Origin: Enterobacter mori LMG 25706
Lineage (GTDB): Bacteria > Pseudomonadota > Gammaproteobacteria > Enterobacterales > Enterobacteriaceae
DNA: 32,243 nucleotides
NCBI RefSeq assembly: GCF_000211415.1
Contig: NZ_GL890775.1
Location: 571,228 to 603,470 of the forward strand
Reading direction: 5' to 3'
Numbering within the stretch: the stretch's first letter is position 1; every line of letters starts with the position of its first letter. A program made the translations under genes and the position numbers. Shown here piece after piece: positions 20,581 through 32,208 of the stretch. Below the pieces are notes generated by a model, which did no database searches, had not been told where the DNA came from, and saw nothing but the letters and a program-made list of their open reading frames with translations.

Positions 20581-20626
20581 CCCTCTCCCAGTGGGAGAGG
20601 GTTAGGGTGAGGGCATCAGGCCGCAC
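20581..20626. repeat. CCCTCTCCC hairpin repeat with GGGTGAGGGCATCAG tail
   Basis: CCCTCTCCC-AGT-GGGAGAGGG is a perfect 9-bp stem, followed by GGGTGAGGGCATCAGG and CCGCAC. The same module is at 28013-28051 and, degenerate, at 4892-4924. The tail touches the stop codon of the GH31 gene. It may serve as a terminator-like or mRNA-end structure for both converging genes. Confidence 0.75.
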
Positions 20627-22989
20627 TACATCACCCACTCACTCCCTTCAACCCCGTTCACCAGCAGCTTACGTTTTTCCCCCGCCGGTAACGACACCTT
20701 CAGCGCTTTCCACGCCGGACGGTAATCCCCGCGCGCGTTCACCTTCAGGTTAATGGTTGCGCCGTCACACACCATTTCCCATTCAACCCACAGCGCATTG
20801 CCGTTCTGGTAGCCCCAGCTTTCTCCGTCATCTTCAAACAGTATGCCAGAGGTTGTCCCGACGCCTTTTATCGGGAACAGCTTCAGCTCGCGGGTATTGT
20901 CTTTTTCAGCAGAGACGTGGGTAATGCGCTCGCTTAGCGGCAGACCGGCACCGGCGCGTACCAGCAGCGGCAGTTTTTCCAGCGGCGCATCGAGAACAAT
21001 CGACTGGCCGCCCGCATACCACGCGTGGGTGTAAAAATCGTACCAGCCGGTGGCGTTATCCGGCAGCCAGACGCGGCGCTCGCGCTGCCCGGCTTCGACG
21101 ACGCTGGCCACCAGCAGGTCGCGGCCAAGCAGGAAGTCATCGCACTCCTCAAACGTCTGCGCATCGTGCTCATGATCGAGGAAGGTCGGGCGCAGCATCG
21201 GCTCGTCGTCGGCGTGCGCCTGCCAGAGCAGGGTGTAGAGGTACGGCAGCAGGCGGTAGCGCAGCTCCACCGCGCCACGAATGGCTGGCGTGACGCCCGG
21301 GTACATCCACGGTTCGTCCACGGTGTGGTCATCGTTCCACGAGTGAATGGTAAAGCGCGGATGCATCACGCCGTTCTGCACCCAGCGAACGAACAGCTCG
21401 GCGTCCGGTTTGTCGCCGGAGAAACCGCCGACGTCGTGACCGACGTTGAACAGCCCGGACAGGCTCATGCCCAGCCCCATGCGGATGTTATAGCGCAGGG
21501 TGTCCCAGCTGGTGCGGTTGTCGCCGCTCCAGGTCTGGACGTAGCGCTGCATCCCGGCGCAGCCGGAGCGGGAAATCAGGTACGGACGCTTTTCCGGCGC
21601 GAAACGCTGCTGCGCTTCAAGCGAGGCGCGCATCATCAGCAGCGGCATCACCGGGCGAATGTGCTTGATGGCGATCTCCTTGCCGAAGCCAAAGCAGCGC
21701 GCTTCCCCGTCCCACACTTCGTATTCGTTGTTGTCGTTCCAGGTGGAGTCGATGCCCATCTCCAGCAGCTGCGTGGTGACGCCGTTCTGCCACCACTGCA
21801 CCGTCTGAGGGTTGGTAAAATCGAGGTGCGAGCCTTCGTCATCCCAGAAGCTGGAACGTTCCGGCGCATCGGTTTCTGAATCGCGAATGAACAGGCCGCT
21901 TTCCGCCACTTCGCTATAGCGCGGATGATCCTGCAGCAGGCACGGCTTGATGTTGGCCGCAAGCTTCAGCCCCGCGTCGTGGAACGCCTGGCTCATTACC
22001 TTCGGCTGCGGCACCTTGTCATAGTTCCAGTTGAAGACGTAGCGCTTGCCGTTGATGGAGGTATAGCCGGAGGAGAGCTGGAACGAGTCGCACGGAATGG
22101 CGTGCTCTTCACACAGGCGGATGAAGTTCATCAGCTGGTTTTGCGCGTCCGGCGCGTCGGTGTAGTGCATGGTCGAGCCGCTGTAGCCCAGGGTCCATTT
22201 TGGCCCGAACAGCGTTTTTCCGGTCAGGCGCACGAAGGCCTTGGTGACGTCCAGCACGCGCTTGCCGGTAAAGATGTAGTAATCGATATCGCCCGCTTCC
22301 GCCTGCCAGCGGCGGCAGGCGGTGTGGTAGTTGTCTATCTCGTTGCCCAGATCCAGCCAGCAGCTGCTCAGGTTGTCGTAGAACAGGCCGTAACTCACGT
22401 CATCGCGGCGGGTGAGGGTGAACGGAATGTGCTTGTAGAGCGGGTCGGTGCTGGCCGCGTTGTATCCCATTGCGTCGAGGTTGCGCATCTCGTAGCGTTT
22501 GCCGTTGCGCTGCAGATCGCCCGCTTTCTCGCCCAGACCATAAAAACGCTCATCCTTACGACGGCTCAGGTAATGCGCAACGCCGTCGCCGTGGGCGTTC
22601 AGGAGGTAGGCGCTGGTTGGACGGTCGTTGACCAGCGGCAGCCACTCGCCCGCCTCATTGCGGTAGTGCCACTCCAGCCACAGCGGCTGGTGGACGGTCA
22701 CGCGCAACCGTTCGGTTGCCACGGTTAGCGTCTCACCCTGCTGCGTGAGCGTCCAGGCCGGGCAGGTAAAACCGCTTAAATCGTCACGGCGGCGGCCTTC
22801 CCAGGGCACGTCTTTTTCCGGCGCGATGCTCCAGGTGCGGTCCAGCGCCAGCTCGCCTTTGCGTTTGATCAGCACACGGAACAGGTTCTCTTCCAGCACG
22901 TACAGGCACAGGCGGTGCTGATTATCGACCAGCAGTTCCAGATGGTTTGCTGACTGTTTATCTACGGTCCAGTTTTTCAGGGTTTTCAT
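20626..22989 (-). CDS. Glycoside hydrolase family 31 alpha-glycosidase
   Basis: Probably cytoplasmic alpha-glycosidase (no signal peptide). From ATG at 22989 it has 787 residues: an N-terminal beta-sandwich (to about 230), a TIM barrel, and C-terminal beta domains. The catalytic nucleophile is D419 in GIDSTWNDNNEYE and the acid/base is D490 in TWSGDNRTSW; GHDVGGFSG is also typical. A loop with GKRYVFNWN near residue 315 recalls a group of GH31 enzymes with unusual specificity. The usual NEP of alpha-glucosidases is NEY here, so specificity should not be assumed. GTG at 23004, five codons upstream, is an alternative start. It directly follows the MFS gene (17-base gap), so importer and hydrolase form an operon. 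Confidence 0.88.
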   Translation of the reverse strand: MKTLKNWTVDKQSANHLELLVDNQHRLCLYVLEENLFRVLIKRKGELALDRTWSIAPEKDVPWEGRRRDDLSGFTCPAWTLTQQGETLTVATERLRVTVHQPLWLEWHYRNEAGEWLPLVNDRPTSAYLLNAHGDGVAHYLSRRKDERFYGLGEKAGDLQRNGKRYEMRNLDAMGYNAASTDPLYKHIPFTLTRRDDVSYGLFYDNLSSCWLDLGNEIDNYHTACRRWQAEAGDIDYYIFTGKRVLDVTKAFVRLTGKTLFGPKWTLGYSGSTMHYTDAPDAQNQLMNFIRLCEEHAIPCDSFQLSSGYTSINGKRYVFNWNYDKVPQPKVMSQAFHDAGLKLAANIKPCLLQDHPRYSEVAESGLFIRDSETDAPERSSFWDDEGSHLDFTNPQTVQWWQNGVTTQLLEMGIDSTWNDNNEYEVWDGEARCFGFGKEIAIKHIRPVMPLLMMRASLEAQQRFAPEKRPYLISRSGCAGMQRYVQTWSGDNRTSWDTLRYNIRMGLGMSLSGLFNVGHDVGGFSGDKPDAELFVRWVQNGVMHPRFTIHSWNDDHTVDEPWMYPGVTPAIRGAVELRYRLLPYLYTLLWQAHADDEPMLRPTFLDHEHDAQTFEECDDFLLGRDLLVASVVEAGQRERRVWLPDNATGWYDFYTHAWYAGGQSIVLDAPLEKLPLLVRAGAGLPLSERITHVSAEKDNTRELKLFPIKGVGTTSGILFEDDGESWGYQNGNALWVEWEMVCDGATINLKVNARGDYRPAWKALKVSLPAGEKRKLLVNGVEGSEWVM

Positions 22990-23006
22990 ATGCAATACAT
23001 CCACTA

Positions 23007-24308
23007 TCAGGCGCGCTTGGCGCGACGTTCAGCAATAAATGCTACCAGGAAGACAGCGCCAATCAGGTCAAAGAAGCCCATGGCAATAAAGAGCGGGTTA
23101 AAGCCGATTTTGTCGGCGGTCACACCGATTAACAGCGAGAACAGGAAGCTGGCGATCCACGCCGCCGAGCCACGCATGCCGTTGACGGTCGCCATCTGGC
23201 CTTTGTCGAACGACTCCACGACCAGGGCGCTCAGCATGCAGGAGATGATCTGGTGCCCGAAGCCGCCGATGGAGATCAGCACGATGGTGATATACGGGTC
23301 GCGTGTGATGGCCACGATGCCCAGAGAGATCATCAGGAACGCGCCCGTCACGGAGCTGGCAACGACCGAGTTAACGCGGGAGCAGCCGAACAGACGGGTG
23401 TACAGACGCGTCAGGTAGCCACTCGCCACGCTGCCCAGATCGGCGGCGAGGAACGGCAGCCAGGCAAACATCGCAATCTGCTTCAGATCCATGCCGTGCT
23501 CTTTGGCGAGGTACAGTGGCACCCAGAAGCTCAGCACCGCCCAGGCTGGTTCCGCCATAAAGGCCGGGATGGCGATACCGTAGAAGCGTTTGTTTTTCGA
23601 AACGGTTTTCAGCGCGGTCAGGAAGGGCAGTCTCACCGCAGGCGGTTCGTTATCCTGCTTGATAAACGCCAGCTCGTCCTTGCTCAGGTTCGGGTGCTGC
23701 TCCGGGTTGTGGTAGAACGCCCACCAGAGGATCACCCACAGCAGCGCCAGCACGCCGGTAAACATAAACGCGCCCTGCCAACCGAACGAGACGTGAGCAA
23801 AGTAGATGATAGGCGGGGCCAGCATCGCGCCGATGGAGAAGCCCACGCCCGCCCAGCCGGCGGCAACGGGACGTTCTGATTTCGGGAACCATTCGCCGAT
23901 GGTTTTGGCATTCGCTGGGGTAGCGGCGGCCTCAGAGGCACCCATAAAGAAGCGCAGAATCGCCCGGTGCAGCCAGCTTCCGGCGCCCGCATGGAAAATA
24001 CACATCAACGCCCAGATCCCGGCGCAGACCATAAAGCCAATCTTCAGGCCGATAACGTCAATCAGCCAGCCGCACAGGGGCTGGAAAATGGTGTAGGCGA
24101 TCTGGAACGCGCCGACGATCCAGGAGTATTGCTCGGTGGTGATGCCGAGGCTCTCTTTCAGTTCCGGGGCGAGGATCCCGAGCGAGTTTCGGGTGATGTA
24201 GTTAACGGTGACGCCAAGTAAGAACAGCACCAGCACGTACCAGCGCAGGTTCTTGATGACGCGACGGGTTTTGCTTGTCGCAACGGTGTTATTGATGTCC
24301 TGACTCAT
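23007..24308 (-). CDS. MFS importer of the anion:cation symporter family (hexuronate transporter-like)
   Basis: Twelve-helix inner-membrane symporter, 433 residues from ATG at 24308 (GGAG six bases before; GTG at 24320 is an alternative). Family marks are VNYITRNSLGILAPELKESLGIT in helix 1 region, FMGASEAAATPANAKTIGEWFP after helix 4 and GWQGAFMFTG. These are typical of the ACS family (ExuT, GudP, YjjL), whose substrates are sugar acids and other organic anions. Co-transcription with the GH31 gene suggests that it imports a glycoside, perhaps acidic, for internal cleavage. A UxuR/ExuR-like box lies about 95-105 bases upstream, and a LacI-type regulator is divergent. Confidence 0.88.
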   Translation of the reverse strand: MSQDINNTVATSKTRRVIKNLRWYVLVLFLLGVTVNYITRNSLGILAPELKESLGITTEQYSWIVGAFQIAYTIFQPLCGWLIDVIGLKIGFMVCAGIWALMCIFHAGAGSWLHRAILRFFMGASEAAATPANAKTIGEWFPKSERPVAAGWAGVGFSIGAMLAPPIIYFAHVSFGWQGAFMFTGVLALLWVILWWAFYHNPEQHPNLSKDELAFIKQDNEPPAVRLPFLTALKTVSKNKRFYGIAIPAFMAEPAWAVLSFWVPLYLAKEHGMDLKQIAMFAWLPFLAADLGSVASGYLTRLYTRLFGCSRVNSVVASSVTGAFLMISLGIVAITRDPYITIVLISIGGFGHQIISCMLSALVVESFDKGQMATVNGMRGSAAWIASFLFSLLIGVTADKIGFNPLFIAMGFFDLIGAVFLVAFIAERRAKRA

Positions 24309-24400
24309 TTTACTCTCCACAAGACGGACGGTAAGGGGACGGAGGTTCAGGTGTCACACGGATTGTTATGGCTTTGATTTCTATCCGTTTAAACTGCTTA

Positions 24401-24415
24401 AGTTGGTATACAACT
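24401..24415. promoter_or_regulatory. UxuR/ExuR-like operator upstream of the MFS-GH31 operon
   Basis: AGTTGGTATACAACT is an inverted repeat (AGTTG/CAACT) whose core TTGGTATACAA is close to the hexuronate-regulator consensus TTGGTATACCAA. A possible leftward promoter overlaps it, with TTGTCA at 24436-24431 on the minus strand as -35 and the -10 inside the box. Confidence 0.5.
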
Positions 24416-24492
24416 AGTATGGAAGTTGTGTGACAAGTTCACCTTAAGGGAGAAAATGAGCAGGCAATAGTGGATTTTGTGCAAAATTTCTC

Positions 24493-24538
24493 ATAACTGA
24501 CGAAATGCCTCTGGCATGATGGTGTTTATGTCAGTTAT
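24493..24538. promoter_or_regulatory. Nested inverted repeats upstream of the LacI-family gene
   Basis: ATAACTGAC (24493-24501) and GTCAGTTAT (24530-24538) form an outer 9-bp inverted repeat that encloses ATGCC-TCT-GGCAT (24505-24517). The structure ends about 58 bases before the regulator ATG. It may be a binding site for the LacI-type protein, but it lacks the classic central CG. Confidence 0.45.
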
Positions 24539-24596
24539 TGCCTGACCAATACGCTATGAAAAATTTTTCATTTCGCAAATGGAGCCAGATCACAAA

Positions 24597-25670
24597 ATGG
24601 ACAAAAGGCTAAAAATCACCGAAATTGCCGCCCGTACGCAGCTCTCCATCAGCACCGTGTCGCGGGTGCTGGCGGGGAAAGCGAATACCAGTGAAAAGGC
24701 GCGCGCAAAGGTGCTGGCATGCGCCCGAGAGCTGGGCGTGATGGAAGGTATGGCGGCGGGGCGGTTGCTGCTCAATAGCCTGGTGGTTTTTGCCCCCCAA
24801 CGCGCCTTCGACGAGCGGTCCGACATCTTTTACTACCGTGTGATCCAGAGCGTGAGTAAAGGCCTGGCGTCCCACGATGTGCGACTTCGCTACTGCGCGC
24901 TGGAAGAGAACGATAGCGACGCGCAGCTGTTTCTGGCGCGCATGAATGAAGCGGACACTCAGGCGGCGATTCTGCTCGGTATCGACGATCCGCACATTCA
25001 CGATCTGGCGGTGGACGTGGGGAAACCCTGCATGCTGATTAACTGCCGCGACCGGCACATGCGTCTGCCTGCCGTTGCGCCGGACCACCGCGCCATTGGC
25101 GAGCGGGCGGCGGAATATCTGTTCGAGATGGGACACCGTGAGGTGATGAACGTGCTGTGCCTGCGTCGCTACACCATGGAGCTGCGCCTGTCGGGGATCC
25201 GCGACGCGTGGCAGTCCCATAACCTGACGTTCAGCGATAAACGCGATCTGCTGGTGGTGCCCAGCTTCAGCGCGCGCGAAACGGAACAGGCGGTCAGCAG
25301 CTGGCTCAGCGAAGTGCAGGGGAAAGATTTACCTACCGCATTCCTGGTCGGCGGCGACTTTATGGCGGCGGGCACCATTAGCGCATTACAAAACCACGGT
25401 CTGCGCGTGCCGCAGGACGTGTCGGTGATGAGCATCGACGGGTTTAACCTGGCGGCGATCCAGGATGTTCCATTAACGGCCGTGCACGTTCCCCGCGACG
25501 AACTGGGAACCGAAGCGGTACACATGCTCCAGCAGCGGCTGATGCGCCCGGACGCGCCGGTGGGGACGTTGCTGCTTAACGGCACGCTGACCGTGCGGGG
25601 ATCCGTACGGCGGATACGTCAGGGGAAACGACGCACCGCCGTGGAGCGGGAAGGGCTGTACGACAGTTAG
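24597..25670 (+). CDS. LacI-family transcriptional regulator
   Basis: Sugar-responsive DNA-binding protein, 357 residues from ATG at 24597. That start is preceded by GGAG at a 12-base distance; an ATG six codons upstream at 24579 lacks a ribosome site. The N-terminal helix-turn-helix is LKITEIAARTQLSISTVSRV (recognition helix SISTVSRVLAG), followed by a hinge region that departs from the family pattern (MEGMAAGRLLLN). The periplasmic-binding-protein-like effector domain covers about 65-330, with VMSIDGFNLAAIQDVPLTAVH. It is divergent from the MFS-GH31 operon, which it probably controls. Its TAG stop overlaps the ybiU stop codon on the other strand. Confidence 0.92.
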   Translation: MDKRLKITEIAARTQLSISTVSRVLAGKANTSEKARAKVLACARELGVMEGMAAGRLLLNSLVVFAPQRAFDERSDIFYYRVIQSVSKGLASHDVRLRYCALEENDSDAQLFLARMNEADTQAAILLGIDDPHIHDLAVDVGKPCMLINCRDRHMRLPAVAPDHRAIGERAAEYLFEMGHREVMNVLCLRRYTMELRLSGIRDAWQSHNLTFSDKRDLLVVPSFSARETEQAVSSWLSEVQGKDLPTAFLVGGDFMAAGTISALQNHGLRVPQDVSVMSIDGFNLAAIQDVPLTAVHVPRDELGTEAVHMLQQRLMRPDAPVGTLLLNGTLTVRGSVRRIRQGKRRTAVEREGLYDS

Positions 25671-26923
25671 ACCATGCCCAGCGCGCGCTTGCCGTGGATG
25701 TTGAGATCGTTCACGGTAAAGCGGTCCTGCCAGCTCTTTTCATAATCCTCACGCGGGAAGTCTCCCGGCGACGCACCGGTCTCCAGCGCTTCTTTGACCT
25801 TTTTCGCGTAGGCGAGATTTTTCTCGCACATCGGCGCGGCAGGGATGTACATCACGTTGCCCCAGCCCTGCTGATTCTCCACCGGCGCGACGGAGTGGAT
25901 CACATCGCAGTGCCACCACACGGAATCGCCCGCTTCGAGTGCCGGAATGCTGGTCAGCGCCTCGATGAGCAGCGGGTGCCACTTCTCGGAAATCGGCAGC
26001 ACGCGTCCCGGCGCCACGCCGCACAGCTCGTCCTCCGGCACGTCGTCCAGCAGCGGACGCAGCAGTATATAGGCCATCGCTTCCGGGATCGGCACTACGT
26101 GCAGCAGCCCCTGACCGGGGATCATGTCCGACAGCGCCGTCCAGCCCTGGAAGGTGCGGAACACCGAGCATTTGGTGGTGTTATCGACGGTGTACTCTTC
26201 CACTTCAGTACGGTGCGCGGCGTTCCACGGATCGTACTTATCGACGTTGCCGTCAAACACGCGGGCGAACACCTGTTGATAAGCCGGAAGCAGCCAGCGC
26301 TCCAGCGCGCCGGAGTCGGTATGCGCGCCCAGTCCTTTCGAGGTGGTTCCCGGCGGACGGCGGCGGATACGGTCCGGGTAAATCACGCTCACGTCCGGGT
26401 CGAACCACTGCTTGCCGTTGCTCTCGAATGTCCATAAACGGTTCAGGAACGACTGCACCTGCGCCATCTCTTCGCTCTGGCGCGCCTGCATTTGCGCCTG
26501 AGACCAGTAAATCGGGTAAATCTCAGGACGAGAGGCCGTTAAGGTGCCGAAGAAGTTATCGCCTGGGCCTTTGTACACGTCGTCAAACGTGTTGAGATCG
26601 AGGTAGTCGAGCATCGACTGATCCCATGCCAGCGCCTGCTCGCGTGGGAAATGACCTTTAATCACCGCGCAGCCGCGGCGTTTAACGGCTTCGCGCTGAG
26701 CGTCGGTGAAGGTGCCATTTTTCACATCCGCGAACGGGATCACCGGCCAGACGGTTTCGCCTTTGTTCTTAAGGGCGTTGATTTCCGCCACGCGGGTGGC
26801 AATTTTATCGCTGAGCTTATTAAACACCGCCTGCACGTCGCCGATCTGCGCGCGTAACTCACGTTTTAACTGACGGATTGCCGCTTTGTGATCCGCTGGC
26901 AAAGTTTCACTGGTAAAGGTCAT
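25667..26923 (-). CDS. ybiU: DUF1479 protein YbiU, possible Fe(II)/2-oxoglutarate oxygenase
   Basis: Conserved cytoplasmic protein of unknown function, 418 residues (E. coli YbiU 421). It has a polar helical N-terminus (about residues 10-55), then a region with the features of a cupin-type oxygenase: GAHTDSGALERW (H201-x-D203) and, 140 residues later, WWHCDVIHSVAPV (H343). An HxD...H arrangement is the iron-binding facial triad of 2-oxoglutarate-dependent dioxygenases; assigning it here is inference. ATG at 26923 follows GAGG. The gene is monocistronic; its promoter region carries the CTTTCATTCGAAAG element shared with ybiV and pflE/fsaA. The substrate is unknown. Confidence 0.9.
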   Translation of the reverse strand: MTFTSETLPADHKAAIRQLKRELRAQIGDVQAVFNKLSDKIATRVAEINALKNKGETVWPVIPFADVKNGTFTDAQREAVKRRGCAVIKGHFPREQALAWDQSMLDYLDLNTFDDVYKGPGDNFFGTLTASRPEIYPIYWSQAQMQARQSEEMAQVQSFLNRLWTFESNGKQWFDPDVSVIYPDRIRRRPPGTTSKGLGAHTDSGALERWLLPAYQQVFARVFDGNVDKYDPWNAAHRTEVEEYTVDNTTKCSVFRTFQGWTALSDMIPGQGLLHVVPIPEAMAYILLRPLLDDVPEDELCGVAPGRVLPISEKWHPLLIEALTSIPALEAGDSVWWHCDVIHSVAPVENQQGWGNVMYIPAAPMCEKNLAYAKKVKEALETGASPGDFPREDYEKSWQDRFTVNDLNIHGKRALGMV

Positions 26924-26936
26924 AACTGCCTCGCAT

Positions 26937-26950
26937 CTTTCATTCGAAAG
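26937..26950. promoter_or_regulatory. Shared palindromic element, copy 1 (ybiU)
   Basis: CTTTCATTCGAAAG has 5-bp arms CTTTC/GAAAG around ATTC. It lies 14-27 bases upstream of the ybiU ATG, just before the ribosome site, where a bound protein would block elongation or overlap the transcription start. The identical 14-mer, inverted, is at 31455-31468, and a 13-of-14 copy is at 27956-27968. Confidence 0.7.
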
Positions 26951-26973
26951 TAAAAATATCTACAAGTGATACT

Positions 26974-26993
26974 TTAAGTTAAAATTAAGTTAA
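26974..26993. repeat. Tandem TTAAGTTAA direct repeats upstream of ybiU
   Basis: Two exact copies of TTAAGTTAA start at 26974 and 26985, one helical turn (11 bp) apart. They are about 50-70 bases upstream of the ybiU start and may be an activator site or simply part of an AT-rich promoter. Confidence 0.35.
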
Positions 26994-27029
26994 TGCAAGT
27001 TTAAAAGCTTGACGCAAGCCACAGGACGG

Positions 27030-27062
27030 AAAAAGAGTGAGAGGCCGGAGCAAGGCTCCGGC
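27030..27062 (-). terminator. Terminator downstream of ybiV
   Basis: GCCGGAGC-CTT-GCTCCGGC (minus strand, 27062-27044) is a perfect 8-bp stem starting ten bases after the ybiV stop; a T-rich stretch with TTTTT follows after about ten bases. The delayed T-run makes the call moderate. Confidence 0.6.
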
Positions 27063-27072
27063 GAGGAGAGGA

Positions 27073-27888
27073 TCAGGCGTCGAACGGGGAGTGGTTGTCG
27101 AGCACGGCCTGAATGACGTTCAGCGCGCCCTGGTGGTTGTTGTCGTCGGTACTGTAGCGGCTGATTTCTTTGATGCTTTCTGCCGCGTTGCCCATCGCAA
27201 AGGAATATTTCACCAGCTTTAGCATCTCGGCATCGTTGCCGCTGTCGCCAATGCCCACGCACTCCTGCGGTGAGATTTTCCAGCGTTTCAGCAGGCGGCT
27301 GATGCCGTTGGCTTTGTGCAGGCCGGGGATAATTAAATCCACAAAGCCAAAGCCGCTGGTGACCGGCTTCATGATGCCGTCCAGGGAGACGTGGAGTTTA
27401 TCCACCAGATTAGGAATATCGCTGTCCGGCAGGTTCAGGGAGAATTTAAACAGCACGTCGTCAATCTCGCGGTAATCGCTGATGCGCTTTAAGCGGTGAT
27501 AGTGCTTTGACATCAGCACCACGAACGCTTCAGGAGCCTGGTCGCTGACGTAGGCACTCTCCAGCCCGCAGGCCACGAAGTTCAACCCTTTGTCTTTCAA
27601 CAGTTCGCCAATGACGATTTGTGATTCATGACGCGTCAGTTCGCCGTGGAAAATCTGTTCTCCGTGATCGAACACCAGCGCGCCGTTTTCCGCCACGAAG
27701 GAGAGCCGATCTTTCAGCTCCGGAAAGAAGGAGATGAGCTGGTAATACTGGTTGCCGCTGGCAACAACGAATTCAATGTCACGGGCGTTAAGTTGCTCAA
27801 ACTGTGCCTGGAAGCGGTCACGATCGTACTGCTTGGCATCATCAAGGAAAGTTCCGTCCATATCGGTGACGATAACTTTAACGGTCAT
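27073..27888 (-). CDS. ybiV: HAD-superfamily sugar phosphatase YbiV
   Basis: Cytoplasmic Cof-type HAD phosphatase; the E. coli enzyme hydrolyses sugar phosphates and related compounds. The 271-residue product equals E. coli YbiV in length. Catalytic motifs: D9-x-D11 in [10 protein letters not shown]44 in VVASGN, K192 in LHKANG, and D215/D219 in GIGDSGNDA; the C2-type cap lies between. ATG at 27888 is preceded by CAGGAG; an in-frame start eleven codons upstream (27921) adds residues not seen in the family. Its promoter region has a copy of the shared CTTTCATTCGAAAG-like element, linking it to ybiU, pflEF and fsaA. Confidence 0.95.
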
Positions 27889-27955
27889 ACTGTGCTCCTG
27901 GGTCACTGCGTTTTGAAACATTCTAATAACAAGGTGACGGGGAGCACAAATTTAA

Positions 27956-27968
27956 TTTCATTCGAAAG
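27956..27968. promoter_or_regulatory. Shared palindromic element, copy 2 (ybiV)
   Basis: TTTCATTCGAAAG matches the other copies except for the first base of the 14-mer (A instead of C). It lies 68-80 bases upstream of the ybiV ATG and directly after the T-tract of the pflF terminator, so it sits at the start of the ybiV promoter region. Confidence 0.65.
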
Positions 27969-27969
27969 T

Positions 27970-27997
27970 AAAAGCAAAACGGCAACCGAAGTTGCCG
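27970..27997 (-). terminator. Rho-independent terminator of the pflEF operon
   Basis: On the minus strand the hairpin CGGCAAC-TTCG-GTTGCCG, with a stable UUCG-type loop, is followed by TTTTGCTTTT. It lies about 85 bases after the pflF stop and isolates that operon from ybiV. Confidence 0.88.
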
Positions 27998-28012
27998 CTT
28001 TAAGTCTTTTCT

Positions 28013-28051
28013 CCCTCTCCCGGTGGGAGAGGGCCGGGGTGAGGGCATCAG
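28013..28051. repeat. CCCTCTCCC hairpin repeat, third copy
   Basis: CCCTCTCCC-GGT-GGGAGAGGG forms a perfect 9-bp stem, followed by a GGGGTGAGGGCATCAG tail. It is the same module as at 20581-20626. It lies between pflF and its terminator, within the transcribed 3' region. Confidence 0.75.
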
Positions 28052-28081
28052 CGTGCGCATTTCCCCTTAGGGGATGCACCG

Positions 28082-30514
28082 TTACAGCGTATGCTCAGTA
28101 CGGGCAATAATATCGTCCTGCGCATCCGGCGACAGGGCGGTGAAGAACGCCGAGTAGCCCGCCACGCGCACCACCAGATCACGATACTGGTCAGGATGTT
28201 TCTTCGCTTCCAGCAGCGTATCGCGCGAGACGATGTTGTACTGAATATGCCAGCCTTTGTGCACCTCGAAGAAGGTGCGCAGCAGCACCATCAGCTTCTG
28301 GCGATCGCTGTCGTTTTCCAGCGTCGACGGGTTCAGCTTCTGGTTAAGCAGCACGCCGCCGAGAATCGCCTCGGTAGGCAGTTTACCGACTGAGCCAATC
28401 ACCGCCGTCGGGCCGAGGTGGTCCGTACCGGAGGCCGGGCTTGCCCCTTCCGCCAGCGGGGTGTGCGCCTTACGTCCGTCCGGGGTGGCCATTGTCGCTG
28501 CGCCAAACGGCACGTTTGCGGAAATAGAAGAGGTACCCGCGTAGTAGTTACCGCCAATCGGGCCGCGGCCGTAGCGCGGGTTGTGGTACTGCTTCAGCTC
28601 TTCAATGTAGGTCTGATAGGCGCGCGTCAGTAGCATATCCACGCTGTCGTCGTCGTTGCCGTACTTCGGCGCGCCGTTGATCAGACGCTGGCGCAACTGC
28701 TCGTGAGTCAGCCCCTCGAAGTCATCCGCCAGCGCGGCCGCCAGCTGCTGTTGACCGATAGTGCCCTGCTCGAATACCAGCTTTTTCACCGCCGCCAGGC
28801 TATTGCCGAGGTTGGCGATGCCCACCTGCAGGCCGGAGACCCAGTCATACTTCGCGCCGCCCTGCTTGATGCTTTTCGCGCGCTCGATGCAGTCGTCCAC
28901 CAGCGCCGAGCAGAGAATATCGTGGACGTTCTCTTCCAGCATGGTGTCCACCACGTACTCAATCTCGATGGATTTACGGGTGTAGTAGCGGATCTGGCTG
29001 TCCCACGCCGCCATCACCTCCTCGAAGTTGTCGAAGTTACCGGCAGAGAGGGCTTTCTCCTGCGGGAGGAACACCTTGCCGCTGGTGGCATCGCGCCCGC
29101 CTTCCATCGCCGCCAGCATCACGCGGGCGAAGTTGATAAAGCTCATGCCGGTGCAGCGGTAGCCCCATTTGCCGCCCACCGCGGTTTCGATGCAGCCGAT
29201 GGCCGCGTAGTCGTAGGCGTCGTCTCGTTCTATGCCGAGCTTGATGAATTCCGGAATGACGATTTCATCGTTGTTAAACGCCGGCATGCCGAAGCCGCAG
29301 CGGATCACCTGCACGCAGGCGTCGAGGAAGTCGTTGCTCATGCCCGCGTGGTAACGCACGCTCAGGTTTGGCTGGGTGGAGCGCAGGCGACCGCAGGATT
29401 CCAGAATCGCGTAGGAAAGCGGGTTGACCGCGTCCATCGGCTCGCCGTTGACCAGCTTCTGGCCACCGATGGTGACGTTCTGGTACAGCGGGCTGCCGGC
29501 GGAGGCTTTAGAGTGCGAGCCGGAGCGGATCTTGTTCACTTCCAGCAGCTTCAGCCAGCAGCTGTGCAGCAGCTCAATGGCGTGCTCGCGGTCGAGGCTC
29601 TGGTCAAGCTCCACGTCGCGACGGTAGTACGGATAAAGATACTGGTCCATACGCGCGAAGGAGACGGAGTGGCCGTTGGATTCAATCTGCAGGATCAGCT
29701 GAATGAAGTAGCACAGCTGCAGCGCCTGCCAGAAGGTTTTTGGCGGCTCGTGGGCGATTACGTCACAGTTTTCCGCCATTGCCAGCAGCTCGTCGCGGCG
29801 GCTTGCGCGGGTTTCGGTCGCGGCCATTTCTCGCGCCAGGTCGGCAAAGCGTTTGATGTGCAGGCTCACCGCCTCCAGCACGATATCGATCGCCTTCAGG
29901 AACTGGTCGCCGTGCAGGTCTTCCAGCACTGTCAGGTTGATGCGCGAGCGGCGCTCGGCCACTTTGGCGCGCAGGCCGTCGAGACCTTTCTCCAGCACCA
30001 GTGGGAAGTTCACCGCCAGGTGCGCGTCGCCGGAGGTCATGTTGCCTTCGGCTTTGATAATGCCGGTTTCCAGCAGGCCTTTCTGCTCGTCGGTGAACAT
30101 GCCGTAGCAGCGATCCTGCACCGTCTGGCCGCGCCACCACGGGCAGATGTCATGCAGGACGCGCTTGTTCTCTTCGCTCACCGCAAAGCCCGCGCCCGGG
30201 CGATCCGCCAGATCGTCGATTTCTTTCTCAATCCAGGAGACGGTGTATTCCGGGAAGATCGGCGCGGCGCGCACTTCGCTTGCCTGGTTACCGATGATCA
30301 GCTCGTCGTGTTTGATCCAGATGGTGCGTTCAGCCAGGTGATGCGCCAGCGCCAGGGCGCGACGCACCGGGATCGGCTTGTCCATGTGCTGCTGATACAT
30401 TTCGGTGTAATGCTGCGCGCGCTCGGTACAGACCGGCGGCTTGACGATATGTACGAGGGCCGTTTTGTGCGCTTTAATGCGCTCGCTGAGGGTGTTGAGA
30501 TTCAGGGTCGTCAT
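28082..30514 (-). CDS. pflF: Glycyl-radical enzyme YbiW/PflF (diol-dehydratase-like signature)
   Basis: Oxygen-sensitive glycyl-radical enzyme of 810 residues, the same length as E. coli YbiW, commonly named a pyruvate formate-lyase homologue. The radical glycine is G786 in VRVAGYSAFF. The active-site loop is AAIGCIETAVGG, giving C441 and E443. Pyruvate formate-lyases have two adjacent cysteines here, whereas glycerol/diol dehydratases have Cys-x-Glu, so a dehydratase-type reaction is more likely. The substrate is unknown. It starts four bases after the pflE stop, with its GAGG ribosome site inside pflE, so activase and enzyme are tightly coupled. Expression is probably anaerobic through the FNR box upstream of pflE. 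Confidence 0.93.
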   Translation of the reverse strand: MTTLNLNTLSERIKAHKTALVHIVKPPVCTERAQHYTEMYQQHMDKPIPVRRALALAHHLAERTIWIKHDELIIGNQASEVRAAPIFPEYTVSWIEKEIDDLADRPGAGFAVSEENKRVLHDICPWWRGQTVQDRCYGMFTDEQKGLLETGIIKAEGNMTSGDAHLAVNFPLVLEKGLDGLRAKVAERRSRINLTVLEDLHGDQFLKAIDIVLEAVSLHIKRFADLAREMAATETRASRRDELLAMAENCDVIAHEPPKTFWQALQLCYFIQLILQIESNGHSVSFARMDQYLYPYYRRDVELDQSLDREHAIELLHSCWLKLLEVNKIRSGSHSKASAGSPLYQNVTIGGQKLVNGEPMDAVNPLSYAILESCGRLRSTQPNLSVRYHAGMSNDFLDACVQVIRCGFGMPAFNNDEIVIPEFIKLGIERDDAYDYAAIGCIETAVGGKWGYRCTGMSFINFARVMLAAMEGGRDATSGKVFLPQEKALSAGNFDNFEEVMAAWDSQIRYYTRKSIEIEYVVDTMLEENVHDILCSALVDDCIERAKSIKQGGAKYDWVSGLQVGIANLGNSLAAVKKLVFEQGTIGQQQLAAALADDFEGLTHEQLRQRLINGAPKYGNDDDSVDMLLTRAYQTYIEELKQYHNPRYGRGPIGGNYYAGTSSISANVPFGAATMATPDGRKAHTPLAEGASPASGTDHLGPTAVIGSVGKLPTEAILGGVLLNQKLNPSTLENDSDRQKLMVLLRTFFEVHKGWHIQYNIVSRDTLLEAKKHPDQYRDLVVRVAGYSAFFTALSPDAQDDIIARTEHTL

Positions 30515-30518
30515 AAGT

Positions 30519-31418
30519 TTATCCTCGTAAGGTCGCGGTTAACCCTTTCTGGCAGGCGTACTGCTGCGCGAAGTCCAGCAGGGCAGGGTTATCCAGCGGT
30601 TTGTCAGGGGCAGAGTAGGGTTGGCCGAGCAGGGTGTATTTGTTCATGCCCAGCGTGTGGTACGGCAGAAAATGAATATCCTCGACGCCGAGCTCGTCGG
30701 CAGCGAAATTGGTAATGGCGGTAACAGAGGCTTCATCGGCGTTAAAGCCCTGGATCAGCGGCACGCGGATGGTGATTTTTTTCCCGGCCGCGGCAAGGCG
30801 TTTCAGGTTGTCCAGGATCCGCTTAGCCGAACCGTCCGTCCACTGCTTGAACACCTCACCGTCGACGTGCTTCAGGTCGGCGAGGAACAGATCGACGTAG
30901 GGTAAAGAGGGCTCGATATAGTGCCACGGTACGTGAAGACAGGTTTCGACGGCGGTGTGGATACCCTGTTCGTGGCTGGCTTTAAACAGCGCGTACACCA
31001 GCTCCGGGTTCATAAACGGCTCGCCGCCGGAGAGGGTAATTCCGCCGCCGCTGCGGTCGTAAAAAGGCTTATCGCGCAGTACGGTCGCCATGATCTTCTC
31101 GACCTGCTGTTCTTCACCACAGACGGTCAGCGCCTGCGTCGGGCAGCAGTCGGTGAGGGTGTTGAGCGTGGCGTCATCAAGCTTCTCACGGTGAATGACC
31201 AGCCCGTTCAGCGCGCGTTCGATGCAGCCCGGCGCTGCCTGCTGGCACAGGTCGCAGCCGTCCAGGCACAGGCGCGCATCAAACAGCACGTCCCGGCTGC
31301 GGGAGCGGCTTTCCGGGTTCTGGCACCAGCGACAGCCCAGCGAGCAGCCTTTCAGGAACACCACGGTTCGAATGCCGGGGCCATCGTGGGTAGAGTAACG
31401 CTGAATATTGAAGATCAT
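30519..31418 (-). CDS. pflE: Glycyl-radical enzyme activase YbiY/PflE (radical SAM)
   Basis: Radical SAM enzyme that abstracts hydrogen from the partner's glycine, here PflF G786. From ATG at 31418 ([15 protein letters not shown]) it has 299 residues; GAGAGG lies just upstream. The SAM-cluster motif CSLGCRWC is at residues 25-32 (C25, C29, C32). A ferredoxin-like insert with extra cysteines (C51, C55, C58, C65, C91, C92, C100) probably holds additional 4Fe-4S clusters, as in most activases other than Pfl[12 protein letters not shown] is the glycine-rich SAM-binding stretch. ATG at 31439 is an alternative start. It is first in the pflEF operon and divergent from fsaA; the shared palindrome and an FNR box lie between them. 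Confidence 0.94.
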
Positions 31419-31454
31419 GATTTCGCCTCTCACTTGCATATGAAGATTAAATTA

Positions 31455-31468
31455 CTTTCGAATGAAAG
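31455..31468. promoter_or_regulatory. Shared palindromic element, copy 3 (pflE/fsaA)
   Basis: ACTTTCGAATGAAAGT (31454-31469) is a 6-bp-arm inverted repeat with a GAAT centre; its inner 14 bases are the exact reverse complement of the ybiU copy at 26937-26950. It lies 37-50 bases upstream of pflE and 78-91 bases upstream of fsaA, between the FNR box and a TTTAAT -10 candidate of pflE. Confidence 0.75.
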
Positions 31469-31473
31469 TTATC

Positions 31474-31487
31474 TTGATGCAGGTCAA
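31474..31487. promoter_or_regulatory. FNR box between pflE and fsaA
   Basis: TTGATGCAGGTCAA matches the FNR consensus TTGAT-N4-ATCAA at nine of ten conserved positions. For pflE, a start near 31439 would place its centre at -41.5, with TTTAAT (31451-31446, minus strand) as -10. This is the class II activator layout and fits an oxygen-sensitive glycyl-radical enzyme. Confidence 0.7.
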
Positions 31488-31545
31488 CTCTTGAGCAGGT
31501 TTTGTCGTGATAGGGTAAGTGCAGGCTAATTTTGAGGGTGACATC

Positions 31546-32208
31546 ATGGAACTTTATCTCGACACATCTGACGTTGCGGCAGTCAAAAAGCTGGCGCGTA
31601 TCTTCCCGCTGGCGGGCGTGACCACCAACCCAAGCATTGTGGCAGCCGGTAAAACGCCGCTCGATGTGCTGCTGCCTGAACTGCACGACGCGCTAGGGGG
31701 TAAAGGCCGACTGTTCGCGCAGGTGATGGCGACTACCGCTGAAGGGATGGTGGAGGACGCGCGCAAGCTCCGCGCCATCATTAATGACCTGGTGGTGAAA
31801 GTGCCGGTGACCGCAGAAGGGCTGGCGGCTATCAAGATGCTGAAAGCCGAAGGGATCCCGACGTTGGGTACGGCGGTTTACGGTGCCGCGCAGGGTATGC
31901 TCTCCGCGCTGGCGGGGGCGGAATATGTGGCGCCTTACGTTAACCGCGTGGACGCGCAGGGCGGGGACGGGATCCAGACCGTGGTTGAACTGCAACAGCT
32001 GCTGACGCTGCACGCACCGCAGTCAAAAGTGCTTGCCGCGAGCTTCAAAACGCCGCGTCAGGCGCTGGACTGCCTGCTGGCAGGCTGCGAGTCCATCACG
32101 CTGCCGCTGGACGTGGCGCAGCAGTTTATTACTTCTCCGGCCGTGGATGCGGCGATTGTGAAGTTTGAGCAGGACTGGCAGGGGGCGTTTGGACGGACGT
32201 CTATCTGA
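31546..32208 (+). CDS. fsaA: Fructose-6-phosphate aldolase FsaA
   Basis: Class I aldolase of the transaldolase family that cleaves fructose-6-phosphate to dihydroxyacetone and glyceraldehyde-3-phosphate, and performs aldol additions with dihydroxyacetone or hydroxyacetone. The 220-residue product equals E. coli FsaA in length. The Schiff-base lysine is K85 in [10 protein letters not shown], and [12 protein letters not shown] and [14 protein letters not shown] are conserved. ATG at 31546 follows GAGGGTG; the frame opens nine codons earlier (31519), but the family start is [10 protein letters not shown]. It is divergent from pflEF and shares a 127-base regulatory region with it. A REP follows. 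Confidence 0.97.

Follow-up and report, generated by a model that had tools for sequence, protein, structure and literature searches.

GlpR and DeoR are DeoR-family sugar regulators with repeated operators. The closest described relative of the system reported here is the YciT regulon of Escherichia coli, in which chromatin immunoprecipitation–exonuclease (ChIP-exo) peaks of YciT lie upstream of ybiUVWY and fsaA and deletion of yciT alters the expression of ybiV, ybiY and fsaA (PMC8464067); a DNA-chromatography pull-down with the E. coli ybiY promoter also enriched YciT, and this promoter has a start site active anaerobically (PMC12132413). In a second described system, the breakdown of 1,5-anhydroglucitol, the glycyl-radical enzyme YbiW converts 1,5-anhydroglucitol-6-phosphate to 1-deoxyfructose-6-phosphate (Ma et al., cited in PMC12441222). 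Here we analyse a 32,243-nucleotide stretch of Enterobacter mori LMG 25706 (contig NZ_GL890775.1; hereafter the window), which holds three copies of a near-palindromic 14-mer, CTTTCATTCGAAAG, at ybiU, ybiV and between the divergent ybiY and fsaA. We conclude with high confidence that these elements are YciT operators, at which YciT is predicted to repress ybiU, ybiV, ybiY–ybiW and fsaA, its release being brought about by a sugar phosphate of the pathway.

The element is an inverted repeat, ACTTTC-N4-GAAAGT. Scanning the window locates the 14-mer exactly at 26937-26950 (plus strand) and, inverted, at 31455-31468 (minus strand), and a third copy differing at a single end base at 27955-27968 (plus strand). 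An earlier note on this DNA had described these same three near-identical copies, and the scan agrees with it except that the ybiV copy, given there as 27956-27968, had been cut short by the very base that is changed. As the note also had it, all three are intergenic and close to gene starts; measured distances to the start codons of ybiU, ybiV, ybiY and fsaA are 13, 66, 36 and 77 nt, respectively. The scan finds no further match in the window, even at three or fewer mismatches. The predicted operators are as follows.

26937..26950, minus strand: predicted YciT operator at ybiU; read along the gene, CTTTCGAATGAAAG
27955..27968, minus strand: predicted YciT operator at ybiV; read along the gene, CTTTCGAATGAAAT
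31455..31468, minus strand: predicted YciT operator common to the divergent ybiY and fsaA, CTTTCATTCGAAAG in ybiY orientation

The locus resembles the E. coli K-12 YciT regulon in its regulator ortholog, its target genes and its promoters, E. coli K-12 carrying the same three sites; the five gene products are 80–94% identical to their E. coli counterparts.

25667..26923, minus strand: ybiU, Gig2-like/DUF1479 protein, predicted iron-dependent oxygenase (PF07350)
27073..27888, minus strand: ybiV, HAD-family sugar phosphatase (PF08282; 80% identity to E. coli YbiV)
28082..30514, minus strand: ybiW (pflF), glycyl-radical enzyme (PF02901 and PF01228; 94% identity to E. coli YbiW; related structures PDB 8id7 and 8yjn)
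30519..31418, minus strand: ybiY (pflE), radical-SAM activating enzyme (PF04055; 81% identity to E. coli)
31546..32208, plus strand: fsaA, fructose-6-phosphate aldolase (PF00923; 87% identity to E. coli)

The one close YciT ortholog of this genome is encoded on a different contig (C5:779951-780688) and is 81% identical to E. coli YciT over residues 1-247, by which it would share the HTH_DeoR (PF08220) and DeoRC (PF00455) domains found above cut-off in the latter. With GlpR and DeoR, YciT has in common these two domains, TTTC...GAAA half-sites and a second operator copy 22 bp away. The earlier note had proposed one repressor, encoded elsewhere, for five genes forming a pathway: a single protein encoded elsewhere, the five genes and the pathway all stand, and it is very likely that one such protein acts at all three elements and hence on all five genes. 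Its action as a repressor is likely; RefSeq labels YciT a dual regulator. The regulon is not, as had been supposed, unnamed, YciT having already been tied to ybiV, ybiY and fsaA in E. coli (PMC8464067, PMC12132413). The set of YciT targets in E. coli was known, and the earlier note, using nothing but the sequence, had the regulon right. The available text of PMC8464067 gives ybiV, ybiY and fsaA as expression targets and ybiU only in describing the operon and pathway, and proposes osmolarity. The present comparison adds a proposed operon history, a predicted FNR–operator–-10 cassette with a second operator, and a proposed division by oxygen. The 1,5-anhydroglucitol pathway has the same enzymes as this locus (YbiW 94% and FsaA 87% identical to E. 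coli); as described in the available text of PMC12441222, it does not include YbiU.

The distribution of genes across relatives points to the same regulator. We surveyed 198 genomes of the family, whose relatedness by descent means that a Fisher value overstates their independence. YciT was found in 83, YbiU in 70 and YbiY (counted at E <= 1e-80, weaker paralog matches being excluded) in 69. All 69 YbiY genomes carry YciT, and of the 124 large genomes (>=3 Mb) none of the 41 lacking YciT has YbiY. YciT accompanies YbiU in 69 of 70 genomes, the exception (G169) being without an operator copy at one mismatch or fewer, and it was found in all 50 operon-bearing genomes examined (from 80 loci). At the same threshold, the 83 large genomes with YciT average 2.72 operator copies each (control, 0.95) and the 41 without it 0.61 (control, 1.05).

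Gene order links them further. In 28 of the 69 YbiY genomes, a tally made manually with distances rechecked, no more than 10 kb separates yciT from ybiY; yciT is then often the last gene of a ybiY–ybiW–yciT series that diverges from fsaA across an operator; in three of the 28 (G213, G067 and G236; L189, L190) the linked gene encodes a second YciT, 57–59% identical, beside ybiY–ybiW. Among 40 loci around yciT, chosen for linkage (closeness) or for the absence of ybiY, ybiW and yciT are adjacent in 19 (18 on the same strand) and ybiU and yciT in nine, and at two (L187, L188) an exact operator separates the divergent neighbours fsaA and yciT. Genomes having only YbiU show a ybiU–yciT pair in six of ten cases (L173, L174, L175, L179, L181 and L183), each with an operator before ybiU at 0–2 arm mismatches. 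Many linked clusters adjoin osmB, yciH and pyrF, the place where E. coli has yciT alone, and the 'orphan' yciT looks, from this gene order, like a regulator gene that has become detached from its operon. We infer the direction of that separation: yciT would once have stood third in the ybiY operon and would have been left behind when the enzyme genes joined ybiU and ybiV. One further locus (L182, genome G187) has a shortened YciT (198-residue open reading frame (ORF)) in a genome with neither YbiY nor YbiU nor an operator copy at one mismatch or fewer, possibly a decaying regulator.

That another DeoR-family regulator of this genome binds the elements in place of YciT is improbable, but is the best of the alternatives. 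The genome has nine more matches to YciT, at 27–33% identity, and a two-mismatch copy of the element at C5:395279 lies about 450 bp from one DeoR paralog (C5:394160-394831), so that regulators of this kind may recognize similar sites. In E. coli, however, YciT itself was detected at these promoters (PMC8464067, PMC12132413), and both the adjacency and the co-occurrence concern yciT, the co-occurrence counts covering YciT alone among the paralogs.

Conservation of the element was assessed in 82 sequences: the best 80 of 312 YbiY-bearing loci (Enterobacter, Lelliottia, Leclercia, Kosakonia, Kluyvera, Citrobacter, Klebsiella and other genera), E. coli K-12 and the window. Excluding promoters with less than 120 nt upstream, a match beginning after residue 15 or less than 40% identity left 71 for ybiU, 72 for ybiV, 81 for ybiW, 82 for ybiY and 65 for fsaA. 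At one mismatch or fewer the element is present in 68 of 71 ybiU promoters (three worse), 79 of 82 ybiY promoters (three worse) and 61 of 65 fsaA upstream regions, where the site is the ybiY site itself. For ybiV it is present in 56 of 72 (16 worse), rising to 66 of 72 at two or fewer. Shuffled patterns reach one mismatch or fewer at a rate of at most 0.0004, and none of the 81 ybiW upstream regions, taken as a negative control, has fewer than five mismatches to the element. Comparison of the promoters across genera, which the earlier note had proposed, thus finds the element retained at ybiU, ybiV and ybiY/fsaA in near relatives rather than lost from them.

The four-base core at ybiV reads GAAT in 34 promoters, ATTC in 28 and otherwise in ten (n = 72) with the arms retained; because the core reverses while the arms stay, the operator is best written ACTTTC-N4-GAAAGT. 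Elsewhere core orientation is stable (GAAT in 65 of 71 ybiU promoters, ATTC in 71 of 82 ybiY promoters), and at ybiV it flips often among close relatives, with at least 21 state changes on the ybiW tree, where shuffles give 30.6 on average and never below 25. Within Enterobacter the ybiV core type tracks differing upstream terminator-like flanks. Inversion of the core by local template switching is accordingly unsupported, and the different flanks of each core type fit allele replacement as well.

The inverted repeat, only 13 nt ahead of the start codon at ybiU, could also be imagined to act in RNA as a short leader hairpin. We consider this very unlikely, since the arms vary without compensation (in ybiU promoters the left arm is GTTTC in 11 of 71, the right arm GAAAG being kept in 69 of 71), one element serves two divergent genes, and at ybiY the element lies upstream of the predicted -10, described below, and so would not be transcribed.

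The 4.96-Mb genome has two exact and two one-mismatch copies, the fourth of these (C6:45207) within a predicted ORF of 529 residues. At two mismatches, the tolerance suggested in the earlier note, the total is 20, and of the 16 copies with exactly two mismatches 12 lie in predicted ORFs and four are intergenic. The reversed pattern, as a control, has no copy at one mismatch or fewer in the genome. The many scattered copies that would mark a dispersed repeat are thus not seen, and copy number and location rule such a repeat out. The three copies in the window are beyond chance because they are near-exact, their count alone at three or fewer mismatches equalling chance (shuffles average 2.41 matches per window). 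Dispersal or chance recurrence, for which that window count is the sole argument, can be set aside: three of the four copies at one mismatch or fewer in 4.96 Mb fall in this window, and the element is retained at the same promoters of about 80 genomes, with controls close to zero.

Around the ybiY operator, the sequence describes a rigid cassette in which an FNR-like box, 5 nt, the operator, 3 nt and the hexamer TTTAAT follow one another.

31474..31487, minus strand: FNR-like box of the ybiY promoter, TTGACCTGCATCAA, 5 nt from the operator
31446..31451, minus strand: predicted -10 hexamer TTTAAT of ybiY, 3 nt after the operator
31433..31446, minus strand: second, weaker copy of the operator, lying 22 bp downstream of the main ybiY one

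Scored against the FNR consensus, the box is present with at most two of ten mismatches in 80 of 82 ybiY promoters (191 of 1640 shuffles at two mismatches) and with at most one in 58 of 82 (15 of 1640). As two-mismatch boxes are common in shuffles, the fixed spacing is the stronger argument: the gap between the box and the CTTTC that follows is exactly 5 nt in 78 of the 82 near promoters, and 5 nt in 22 of 23 distant ones (two or fewer mismatches; six perfect). The near promoters have TTTAAT in 70 of 82 cases and the distant ones in 9 of 23; a consensus promoter scan of 31400-31560 found no promoter. The distance from box to TTTAAT would fit an FNR class II promoter, a type in which the box is centred near -41.5; with FNR at that position, the operator would lie between the FNR box and the -10. 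At offset +22 the second operator copy has a mean of 1.94 of 8 arm mismatches over the 82 promoters, compared with 5.76 across offsets. The literature, among the matches listed, gave no FNR binding data for this promoter. Work on the E. coli ybiY promoter reported an activator near -20 for which there was no candidate, along with YciT near -5 of the predicted start (PMC12132413), and strong coupling was reported at 0 to +20, with the start site doubted (PMC13228646). The placement of the FNR-like box and the -10 would fit both the activator and the coupling, although only if the predicted start is about 17 nt too far upstream.

The ybiU promoter differs in layout.

26978..27003, plus strand: ArcA-like triple direct repeat GTTAA-GTTAA-GTTTA, its units spaced at 11 and 10 bp, overlying the predicted promoter of ybiU
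26959..26972, minus strand: possible second copy of the operator, weak, lying 22 bp upstream of the main ybiU one

The triple repeat resembles ArcA sites. Of 71 ybiU promoters, 64 have it with no more than one mismatch in 15; no shuffle does. The second operator copy is a weak assignment, because offset -35 scores like offset -22 in the near promoters (means of 2.51 and 2.49 of 8 arm mismatches); distant ybiU promoters have a weaker second copy 21–22 bp away, and the offset scan finds none at ybiV. The operator itself extends to distant YbiU relatives (45–50% identity), where 16 of 24 promoters have it with at most two of ten arm mismatches (shuffles, 13.5%). YbiU is predicted to be an Fe(II)/2-oxoglutarate-type oxygenase: H201-x-D203 together with H338/H343 (the distal HxDxxH pair) is kept in all four related PDB sequences, including the fungal Gig2 6akz, and the HxD...H metal triad in all seven aligned YbiU proteins. 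A literature search on Gig2 turned up nothing of use, and PMC6206680, which deals with cell division, has no bearing on the question.

We propose that YciT covers the promoters and that a phosphorylated product of the pathway releases it, the inducer being 1,5-anhydroglucitol-6-phosphate or the 1-deoxyfructose-6-phosphate that FsaA would split. At ybiY, YciT would sit across the RNA polymerase site, with the weaker operator copy lying 22 bp, or two helical turns, beyond it, so that ybiYW would need both the loss of oxygen, sensed by FNR, and the loss of YciT. YbiU would be an oxygen-dependent enzyme for the same class of compound, repressed without oxygen by ArcA. YbiW, a radical enzyme working anaerobically, and YbiU, an oxygenase working aerobically, would then answer to one YciT switch. 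More tentatively, and with less than even confidence, we suggest a module partitioned by oxygen, in which the same intracellular anhydro- or deoxy-sugar phosphate would free both arms from YciT, FNR would drive YbiW anaerobically, release of ArcA would free YbiU aerobically, and YbiU would be the missing aerobic enzyme for compounds of the 1,5-anhydroglucitol type. No paper mentioning both yciT and anhydroglucitol was seen among the matches listed from the open-licence PMC literature. YciT and YbiU have so far had no firm physiological role, and the comparison connects YciT to the glycyl-radical breakdown of 1,5-anhydroglucitol in gut bacteria. It also offers a concrete operator and promoter layout open to base-by-base mutation, and makes the function of DUF1479/Gig2-like proteins, which range from bacteria to fungi, testable as an oxygen-using counterpart of YbiW.

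Several points weigh against the proposal. The triple repeat is absent from all eight of the more distant ybiU promoters, its pattern was selected after the sequence had been viewed, and the ArcA 15-mer consensus fits most ybiU promoters only at four mismatches; for these reasons the ArcA-like repeat is a lead only. Of the 24 distant YbiU promoters, eight have no recognizable site, and seven of those genomes have YciT. Neither the yciT promoter of this genome (scanned at two or fewer mismatches) nor that of E. coli has a good operator copy, so auto-regulation of yciT was rejected in both. The inducer, the oxygenase activity of YbiU and repression itself are deductions, and binding by YciT is known from E. 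coli, the operators in E. mori being predicted. The available text of the YciT paper gives no operator sequence and proposes a role in osmolarity, with 49 sites of which only 23 lie in regulatory regions (PMC8464067).

Genes for a GH31 glycosidase, an MFS transporter and a LacI-type regulator lie between ybiT and ybiU in the window (20626-25670); E. coli K-12 has none of them at this position.

Twenty regions around recurrent copies in other genomes were inspected for extra targets, and one recurrent intergenic site stood out. There (L246-L251) a one-mismatch copy recurs in six regions, all from genomes with YciT, flanked by genes for a small lipoprotein and a hydrolase, presumably bsmA and yjfP; it is intergenic in five and inside an overlapping ORF prediction in one, and is possibly a further YciT target or the site of a related regulator.

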